DNA of 49,876 nucleotides. Source: Candidatus Gottesmanbacteria bacterium (GTDB lineage: Bacteria > Patescibacteriota > Microgenomatia > UBA10105 > UBA927). Made by a program: the position numbers and the translations under genes. How positions within the stretch are numbered: the stretch's first letter is position 1; each line of letters begins with the position of its first letter. The DNA is taken from the NCBI GenBank assembly GCA_023245355.1, contig JAHFKN010000008.1:1-49876 (forward strand), given 5' to 3'. Of the stretch, positions 1-2,695 are shown in pieces. The notes beneath the pieces are model-generated. The model was not told the origin of the DNA. It did not search any database and was given only the letters and a program-made list of their open reading frames with translations.

Positions 1-2695
1 TCGCTCCCGTACTACCTGTCGGTCCTGATGCACCTTGTAATCCTGTGGCTCCGGTAGAACCAGTCGGTCCGGCATCACCTGTCGCTCCGGTACTTCCCGT
101 TGCTCCCGTCGGACCACTTGATCCCTGAGCCCCTGTAGCTCCTGTCGGCCCACTTGCACCCGCAGTTCCTGTTGACCCCGTTGCTCCCGTCGGACCACTT
201 GATCCCTGAGCGCCTGTAGCTCCTGTCGGTCCTGATGCACCTTGTAATCCTGTGGCTCCCGTTACTCCTGTCGGCCCACTTGCACCCGCAGTTCCTGTGG
301 CTCCCGTTGCTCCGGTGGAACCGCTGGGGCCGGCAAGACCCAAAATTCCGGTGCTTCCGGTAGCCCCCGTCGGTCCTGCATCCCCAGTTACACCAGTAGA
401 TCCGGTTGAACCGGTGGGACCTGATGCACCAGTGCTTCCTGCAGATCCCGTAGCACCCGTACTTCCGGTTGGTCCGGACACTCCCTGAGTTCCTGTGCTA
501 CCCGTACTTCCGGTTGGTCCGGAAGTTCCGACGGCTCCTGTCGCACCAGTGGAACCGGTCGGGCCTGATGTGCCTTGTGATCCGGTGGCTCCTGTTGCAC
601 CAGTGGAACCGGTCGGGCCAGCATCTCCCTGTGTACCTGTGGCTCCTGTCGGTCCGGTCGGTCCTGACGTACCCTGTAATCCCGTGGCCCCCGTTGCTCC
701 CGTCGGACCACTTGCACCCGCAGTTCCTGTTGCTCCAGTCGTTCCTGTAGAGCCGCTGGGGCCGGCACTGCCCAATGCTCCTGTGTTTCCTGTTGCTCCT
801 GTGGGACCCTCAGCTCCTGTTGCACCGGTGCTTCCTGTTGCTCCCGTTGTTCCCGTCGGCCCGACTTCACCCGTTGCTCCTGTAGAACCAGTGGAACCAG
901 TCGGTCCTGCTGTTCCTGTGGCTCCTGTGCTTCCCGTCGGCCCGACTTCACCCGTTGCTCCTGTAGAACCAGTGGAACCAGTCGGTCCTGCTGTTCCGGT
1001 AGCTCCTGTACTTCCCGTAGAACCAGTCGGTCCTGCGTCACCGGTGGCTCCGGTAGAACCCGTCGGTCCGCTGCTACCTTGTAATCCTGTAGCCCCTGTA
1101 GAACCCGTCGGTCCGGCATCACCGGTTGATCCCGTTGAACCTGTCGGACCAACAGTTCCCGTGGTTCCCGTCGCACCCGTAGCTCCGCTGGGGCCGGGAG
1201 TACCCGTTGCTCCCGTCGGACCTGCTACGCCCGTCGGCCCCGTAGACCCCGTCGGACCTTCTACTCCTGTAGATCCTGTTGGTCCTGCTTGGCCTGTTGG
1301 TCCGGTTGGTCCGCTCGTACCGTCTAATCCCGTTGCTCCCGTCGGACCGGAACTTCCCATCGTACCCGTCGCACCGGTAGAACCGCTCGGCCCTGAACTT
1401 CCGGCTCCACCTGTAGATCCTGTGGGTCCTGACGCTCCGATTGCTCCTTCTATGCCGGTTGCTCCTGTGCTTCCTGTCGGTCCGGCTCCTCCTGTTGCTC
1501 CCGTCGTGCCGGTTGCTCCTGTGGGTCCTGACGCTCCGATTCCTCCCGTCGGTCCTGTCGATCCTGTGGCTCCGGTAGGTCCGGAAGTTCCGACAGCACC
1601 TGTTGGGCCACTGCTGCCCGTGGACCCCTGAGTTCCTGTTCCTCCGGTTGACCCCTGAGTTCCTGTTCCTCCGGTTGACCCCTGAGTTCCTGTTCCTCCG
1701 GTTGTGCCTGTGCTTCCTGCAGTTCCGGTCGGTCCTGTTGCTCCTGAAGCGCCGTTTGTACCTGTTGAGCCTTTTGCGCCGGTAGGTCCTGCATCACCTG
1801 TGGCTCCGGTAGGACCAGCTACACCCGTTGTACCAGTACTTCCTGTCGGTCCGGTTGCCCCGCTTGTTCCAAGTACTTGCGCTTGTTGTACCATTTCTTT
1901 CCGCGTTTTTTCGTCGATTGCGATTGTGCCTTCTTTTGCAAGTGAAACCAGTGTTCTTTGCCATCCACCGGTAAATCCATAAATTTGTAACAGGAGAGCG
2001 GAAGCAGAAAGCAATCCGACTCCGACAAGCATGGCAATTCCATATGGAGATCTCCAAAACCGTTGGACGAAGTCATGTTTAAATGCAGCGGCACCGATTG
2101 CGGCAGAAGGGCGGGGATAGGCACAAGACGAACCTATTGTTGAGGGGGAGGTATCGTGATCATTTTCCACAGGTGATATCGGTAAAGGTTCGGGGGGCGG
2201 ATTGGGTATATTTTGAGTGGTTTCGTTATGGTTTAGTACTGATGGAGTAAGTGTAGGTGTAGGTGTAGGTGTAGGTGTAGGTGGCGTTTGAATATCAGGC
2301 GGCTGAACCGTTGCGTTTGGTATCGATTGGTAGGGAGCATGTGAGGAAATGAGTTCCTCTATATCAGCTGCTTTATATCGGCGCGCACCATGGACCGTGC
2401 GACTGGCGCGGATTAATCCTGATTGTTCATATCGGAGTAACGTGCTTTTTGAAATACCCATGCGGTGCGCAGCCTGTGCAGGGGAGAGGAGATGATGTTT
2501 TGCGTGGATGAGTTTTTTAGGTACATTTTTTGGGGGCACAACGTGCTGCAATGTTTCTTCGCTGAATACGTGTCTTCCTTTTTCGTCGACAGCGGAAAGA
2601 ATCTTCCCGCGTTTTACCCAGCGGCGCAGTGTGCTTTTAGAAATGCCAAGCCGTATAGATGCTTGACTTATAGTATATTTTTTGTGATTTTGCAT
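1..2695 (-). CDS. Membrane-anchored tandem-HTH protein with collagen-like (Gly-X-Y) C-terminal domain; partial, continues past left edge
   Basis: Manual minus-strand translation from ATG at 2695: [57 protein letters not shown]...[50 protein letters not shown]...[12 protein letters not shown]...[23 protein letters not shown]...[14 protein letters not shown]... The HTH, TM and Gly-X-Y segments share one frame (ATG 2695, TM Met 2032 and Gly codons near position 58 are all 1 mod 3). No in-frame stop was seen, so the ORF track does not list it. Confidence 0.85.
1624..1704. repeat. Three tandem perfect 27-bp repeats inside the collagen-like coding region
   Basis: ACCCCTGAGTTCCTGTTCCTCCGGTTG occurs three times consecutively (minus-strand product GTGTQGSTG repeated). 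Confidence 0.95.
2251..2284. repeat. Hexanucleotide microsatellite (GTGTAG)n encoding the TP linker
   Basis: gtgtaggtgtaggtgtaggtgtaggtgtaggtgg read directly; encodes [10 protein letters not shown] on the minus strand. Confidence 0.9.

Follow-up and report, generated by a model that had tools for sequence, protein, structure and literature searches.

The leftmost gene of the window analysed here, the whole stretch of 49,876 nucleotides from a Candidatus Gottesmanbacteria bacterium, an uncultured, ultra-small organism of the Candidate Phyla Radiation, encodes a protein with two MerR/BldC-like helix-turn-helix (HTH) domains joined, through a disordered linker and one transmembrane (TM) helix, to a giant collagen-like fibre; as modelled, it is a type II (N-in) membrane protein. 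A DNA-binding domain and a TM helix thus occur in a single chain, as in transmembrane transcription regulators, and we give a nearly even chance to the reading that the protein is a transmembrane DNA-binding regulator, autoregulation included.

Extent of the gene

An earlier note on this DNA had described an uninterrupted minus-strand frame from the ATG at 2695 to the left edge of the window and, on re-reading, this is what we found: a single open frame of 898 codons (2695→2) that runs off that edge. It contains no stop because base 1 of the window is the first base of its contig (G000:C11), so the frame is truncated. The true C-terminus, which the note had proposed to seek to the left, was reached through an exact overlap, since the terminal 120 bp of this contig recur exactly at the end of contig C3, where the frame stays in phase to a stop. 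The joined frame has about 5,312 aa. From the overlap we infer that the two contigs join within the gene, with uncertainty in the copy number of the repeat segment at the junction, because the 120-mer is present twice in C3, 639 bp apart.

Architecture of the protein

The features of the gene within the window are as follows:

2546..2680, minus strand: HTH1, residues 6-50, MerR/BldC-like helix-turn-helix (Pfam MerR_1 7-50; AlphaFold2 helices; alignment)
2342..2491, minus strand: HTH2, residues 69-118, MerR/BldC-like winged HTH (Pfam MerR 72-107 and HTH_17 69-118; Foldseek)
2081..2341, minus strand: Pro/Thr-rich disordered linker, residues 119-205
1970..2047, minus strand: single TM helix, residues 217-242 (hydropathy; AlphaFold2 helix; conserved in four relatives)
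1871..1969, minus strand: juxtamembrane segment, residues 243-275, with a short helix (AlphaFold2 262-274), near-identical in the relative G017
2..1870, minus strand: collagen-like Gly-X-Y tract, residue 276 onward, continuing in C3 (Pfam Collagen; contig overlap)

The tandem MerR-like HTHs that had been read from motifs were recovered by three Pfam models, each over its cut-off and each matching two stretches: MerR (1.8e-16, 60.1 bits; cut-off 28.2), HTH_17 (6e-16, 58.9 bits; cut-off 27) and MerR_1 (3.2e-15, 56.4 bits; cut-off 21.6). An AlphaFold2 model, built on an alignment of five relatives, likewise predicted two confident winged HTHs (pLDDT about 84-91; about 90 for HTH2). In Foldseek comparisons, the head was closest to BldC in BldC-DNA complexes (6ama, with E 1.9e-4 and target TM 0.79, and 6amk), followed by NmlR-DNA, SoxR, RacA-DNA (5i44) and excisionases, so that the predicted fold matches DNA-bound BldC, NmlR and RacA.

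The contacts of BldC with DNA include T27, R30 and W31 and the wing residues R47 and R48 (PMC5859096). HTH2 contains the full DNA-contact signature T..R[WY]...G...RT..G.RRY, with the counterparts of these contacts (T, R, Y/W, R, R) in all five orthologues; the threonine and both wing arginines are invariant among them, even though the most distant is only about 30% identical overall. HTH1 kept the recognition helix (ISKSTLRRW), which holds its only BldC-type residues, and lost the wing arginines. Heads from the whole class invariably have T, L, W, G and one wing R at the corresponding positions, and their linkers diverge. As far as sequence goes, the conservation of the contact residues argues that DNA binding has been selected for. 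The features that follow the HTH in classical MerR proteins, a dimerisation coiled coil and an effector domain, are absent after HTH2, where a disordered Pro-rich linker and the TM helix are found. Family models for BldC (NF033787, HTH_BldC; 29.9 bits, cut-off 77) and RacA (best 18.9 bits, cut-offs 165-265) remained below their cut-offs.

The linker is as rich in Thr and Pro as had been claimed, with 21 Pro and 12 Thr in 87 residues and pLDDT below 50, and its sequence is not conserved among the five orthologues. Only one segment of the joined 5312 aa rises above 1.6 in hydropathy, and it corresponds to the AlphaFold2 helix at 217-242, in agreement with the single TM helix of the earlier note. 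Located about 215 residues in and behind folded domains, this helix is placed as expected of a signal anchor and not of a cleaved signal peptide. Profiles, predicted structure and conservation all support the topology proposed in that note, of a cytoplasmic HTH head, one TM helix and an extracellular collagen stalk.

We counted about 207 Gly-X-Y triplets within the window, where roughly 200 had been announced, and the Pfam Collagen match (4.4e-86) is over the curated cut-off. The joined frame contains 1,256 uninterrupted triplets (residues 276-4043), an exact number that is uncertain, with Thr at Y in 933 of the 1,256. With the textbook rise of 0.286 nm per residue in collagen, the fibre is probably about 1.1 micrometres long, which exceeds the usual diameter of such cells, and it presumably trimerises. 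The collagen gives way to a beta-rich tip about 1,270 aa long, for which a Pfam search retrieved no domain match, Peptidase_S74 included, and in which no sensor domain was recognised; the C-terminus of the joined protein (...SQAAPAAATASAVPL) lacks an LPXTG-type motif. An identity as SclB equivalog was dropped, because that model passes by collagen composition alone. Another short collagen-like frame, with about 100 aa of Gly-X-Y, is present in contig C4 of the same genome (L018, about 260850-261095).

Distribution of the architecture

A scan of contigs from close relatives with the single protein as query gave no match, and the same scan with an alignment as query identified four relatives. 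The order HTH-HTH-linker-TM-collagen occurs in four other genomes of the GTDB family (G017, G019, G003 and G022), which represent three genera, that of the window organism included. The orthologue from G017 is 54% identical to the window protein; that from G019 is complete, with 2,068 aa, and ends, like trimeric fibres, in Peptidase_S74 (4.7e-17) and H-type lectin domains. We found neither a frameshift nor a stop between HTH and collagen and, because the order recurs in four genomes, frameshift, chimera and chance are excluded for the HTH-TM-collagen junction.

In the class as a whole, the head profile matched 90 of 374 genomes, in 73 of which the frame had at least 450 codons, and about a fifth of the genomes sampled there encode MerR HTH–TM–giant-fibre proteins. 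We read the 25 best non-family loci: 24 contained an HTH frame, always with a TM helix after the N-terminal HTH (24/24) and nearly always with a beta-repeat ectodomain after the TM helix. The same order, with recurrent tandem MerR heads, was found in other classes of the phylum, in frames of up to 8,840 codons; the 8840-codon open frame at G415:C7 (L160), with an N-terminal MerR-like HTH, belongs to one of these other classes. The window protein is thus one flavour of a phylum-wide head-membrane-fibre architecture, and collagen appears to be the Gottesmanbacteria flavour of its ectodomain. A search of phages and plasmids gave no match, and one of viral contigs gave eight weak matches, from which two frames were recovered, both free HTH or resolvase-type, with neither TM nor fibre.

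Several free or differently fused MerR-type proteins were also observed. A free BldC-like HTH of about 62 aa (MGDEWPDLLTVREVAKILRVSPLTIKRWGKRGKLPAIRI...) is nearly identical across the genera of the family (L155, L156, L157, L158), and many genomes of the class have short MerR_1 frames, with some MerR_1 match in 134 of 137. A widespread free protein of about 242 aa (L093, L098, L103) combines a MerR HTH at its N-terminus with a conserved EIGNNSxDHNxGNWPD motif, and in two genomes (L030, L108) a MerR-type HTH is joined to a domain that resembles DNA cytosine methyltransferases and has a GGFPCQ motif.

A paralogue with an integrase-type head

In C3, the genes comEC, comEA and leuS separate the end of the window gene from another fibre gene:

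C3:2881-8640: second collagen gene, an integrase-headed paralogue with 189 Gly-X-Y triplets

The tip of the paralogue is 58% identical to that of the window protein (1,281 aligned columns). Its head is an integrase/Xer core-binding domain (Phage_int_SAM_1, 2.5e-10) without a catalytic domain, and lambda Int-DNA complexes are closest to its predicted fold, in a weak match (E 0.02). Integrase-headed versions adjoin leuS in many family members, and in G022 it is the HTH-headed version that adjoins this gene. Because two unrelated DNA-binding folds are carried on one chassis, DNA is suggested as the common target of the heads. It is quite conceivable, if somewhat short of an even chance, that the phylum has a fibre chassis with an exchangeable DNA-binding head and a shared promoter code for its fibre genes, and that the fibre physically couples surface contact to DNA. 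BldC/MerR-type tandem HTHs would be exchanged there for integrase core-binding domains, and the fibres would be collagen or tail-fibre-like.

Other arrangements were seen in relatives or elsewhere in the genome. In five genera (G001, G002, G003, G008 and G012; L042, L043, L044, L045, L046), the second core-binding domain of the integrase-type heads is spread across two translationally coupled frames; wherever we read the junction, no more than about 10 nt separated the downstream ATG from the upstream stop. This suggests a two-chain domain or a ratio-setting device. In contig C10 of the window genome (L017), the gene for a protein with HTH_17, multiple TM helices and dCache (5064-6992) immediately precedes that for a 2410-aa surface protein with collagen, H-lectin and SH3 (6995-14224), and the two seem to pair a membrane-bound sensor with a fibre; the surface protein was ruled out as an HTH fusion, as it has a short tail and no HTH.

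Conserved motifs upstream of the fibre genes

Four conserved elements precede the gene:

2839..2844, minus strand: TTGAC(G), -35-like, conserved in 5/5 orthologous upstream regions
2849..2860, minus strand: AATTCCCGCATC motif, common to the upstream regions of integrase-headed fibre genes
2869..2885, minus strand: conserved block YTATAGTTTAGCCTYRA (alignment of five upstream regions), the sole exact match in this genome
2962..2972, minus strand: conserved CATGAATTTTG block further upstream (same alignment)

The five orthologous upstream regions share CATGAA(TTTTG), TTATAGTTTAGCCT (with small variations) and TTGAC, of which TTGAC(G) is a putative promoter element. Exact matches to TATAGTTYAGCYT number six in 24 genomes, and four lie directly upstream of HTH-headed fibre genes; its reversed control gave a similar total, and concentration near fibre genes was scored for TATAGTTYAGCYT alone. 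With three mismatches allowed, matches to the longer conserved pattern did not outnumber those to its reversed control, which prevents us from deriving a regulon from the conserved block. Inspection of the upstream blocks by eye for exact 9-bp direct-repeat BldC operators revealed no clean array, and matches to AATTNNNNC were discounted as such operators, the motif being too weak.

The upstream regions of the integrase-headed genes, which are located separately, share ACTATAAG and ATGCGGGAA. Considering both gene types, ACTATAAG is present in 13 and TTCCCGC in 11 of 16 upstream regions (chance about 0.03 and 0.02, respectively), and in 50 shuffles no 8-mer reached more than 9 of the 16, statistics that are post hoc and come from orthologues that are not independent. 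Since, in addition, the sharing of promoters by the two gene types could have been inherited with a duplication, the motifs indicate conserved and probably shared control and do not single out the protein exerting it; they could serve another regulator, such as the free 62-aa BldC-like protein.

On the plus strand, the window also contains a T-box leader (3317-3518) upstream of argH and an arginine gene cluster. Its Rfam score (38.6 bits, E 9.2e-7) is below the gathering score, but it has the GGGUGGCACC core, which is also found upstream of argH in G017.

Possible roles of the head

In the favoured reading, of a transmembrane regulator, the tandem BldC/MerR-like winged HTHs would lie in the cytoplasm on a flexible linker, and the TM helix would carry the collagen fibre and its beta-rich tip through the envelope. 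The membrane-tethered head would bind DNA, with the upstream region of its own gene as a probable site and those of related fibre genes as possible further ones, and assembly or engagement of the fibre would feed back on transcription. The binding of DNA, the sites bound and the signalling through the fibre are thus predicted. Single-TM, membrane-bound one-component regulators are common in bacteria (PMC10269533), and this reading is supported by the MerR/HTH_17 scores over cut-off and the match of the head to DNA-bound BldC, NmlR and RacA, by the blocks shared next to TTGAC in five orthologues, and by the paralogue, in which a fibre of the same kind bears an unrelated DNA-binding head. It is weakened by the missing wing arginines of HTH1, by a tip in which no sensor domain was recognised, and because the integrase core-binding head of the paralogue is not a known transcription-factor domain.

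That last head keeps alive an alternative that we consider unlikely but serious: a nucleoid tether, whose head would bind chromosomal DNA to anchor or position the fibre, and not to control transcription. RacA anchors the chromosome at the pole, and RacA-DNA complexes are among the fold matches of the window head; a core-binding domain without a catalytic domain is a DNA binder with no known transcription role; and very long fibres need a firm anchor, which no LPXTG-type motif provides at this C-terminus. However, we found neither a known anchoring site nor a motif repeated along the chromosome, exact matches to the conserved block are limited in this genome to the gene's own promoter, and RacA-specific models score far below cut-off.

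Somewhat less probable still, the HTHs might have been reused as a cytoplasmic interaction module or plug that does not bind DNA. There is a precedent in RodZ, whose HTH binds MreB, and the degraded wing of HTH1 would fit; besides, the genome also encodes fibre proteins that are short-tailed and lack a DNA-binding head, so that such a head is not obligatory for anchoring. Against this, the DNA-contact signature, with a wing arginine, is kept across class-level divergence, and two unrelated DNA-binding folds occupy the same position. The conserved contact residues, together with the conserved upstream region of the gene itself, favour a DNA-acting role over pure reuse.

Regulated proteolysis, in which the head would be cut off the membrane and become a soluble transcription factor once the fibre is engaged or shed, seems improbable. 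The long disordered linker between head and TM helix and the self-cleaving type of chaperone domain (Peptidase_S74) in the G019 orthologue would suit it, but the alignment of orthologues showed no conserved cleavage site in the linker and S74 was not found in the tip of the window protein. Finally, an assembly or gene-call artefact joining unrelated genes, as might be feared from a metagenome assembly with repeats and a contig end inside a repeat, is hardly credible and is refuted for the HTH-TM-collagen junction by the same order in four independent assemblies and the HTH-TM-fibre order in dozens more genomes, leaving uncertain only the repeat length.

Significance and comparison with known systems

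Many ultra-small bacteria depend on other cells and have few known sensors; to our knowledge, how they attach to and recognise their partners is largely unknown. If the regulator or the tether reading is true, a single molecule, the window protein, would lead from contact to gene control or would tether the chromosome to the surface, and a concrete prediction is binding of the head to the conserved blocks in front of its own gene. Our literature search, which covered subscription journals and preprints thinly, retrieved no description of this architecture in Patescibacteria or Gottesmanbacteria, nor of an ectodomain of collagen or tail-fibre type, thousands of residues long, that carries a MerR/BldC head. 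Single-TM transmembrane transcription regulators are a large known class, and the text of their survey mentions neither MerR proteins, Patescibacteria nor collagen (PMC10269533); our results would thus add to the transmembrane DNA-binding regulators a phylum and a type of head unnamed there.

In layout, the window protein resembles ToxR and CadC, with an N-terminal DNA-binding domain, one TM helix and an extracytoplasmic C-terminal part, although its ectodomain is a fibre of thousands of residues and not a small sensor, and the heads of ToxR and CadC are of their own type, different from MerR/BldC. RodZ also combines a cytoplasmic HTH, of the HTH_25 type, with one TM helix and an extracytoplasmic part; unlike RodZ, the window protein keeps the MerR DNA-binding signature, and HTH_25 was not among the Pfam matches shown. 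With RacA it shares a MerR-like HTH linking DNA to the envelope, as well as the match to 5i44, but it falls outside the RacA family and has an integral TM helix and a fibre. The head of the paralogue is similar to the core-binding domain of lambda integrase, here without the catalytic domain and fused to TM and collagen.

BldC is the best match of the window head by fold and resembles it by the contact residues kept in HTH2 and by the lack of a MerR dimerisation coiled coil, and the two HTHs in one chain resemble the head-to-tail pair of BldC on direct repeats; nevertheless, BldC is a free 68-residue protein, whereas here two copies are fused to a linker, a TM helix and a giant ectodomain. Likewise, the fibre is similar to those of Scl1/Scl2 and BclA in its long Gly-X-Y tract, Thr-rich at Y and rich in GPT/GST/GAT triplets, but it does not have the C-terminal LPXTG wall anchor of Scl1/Scl2 and differs from all of them in belonging to a type II protein, with an internal TM helix, a cytoplasmic head and 1,256 uninterrupted triplets.
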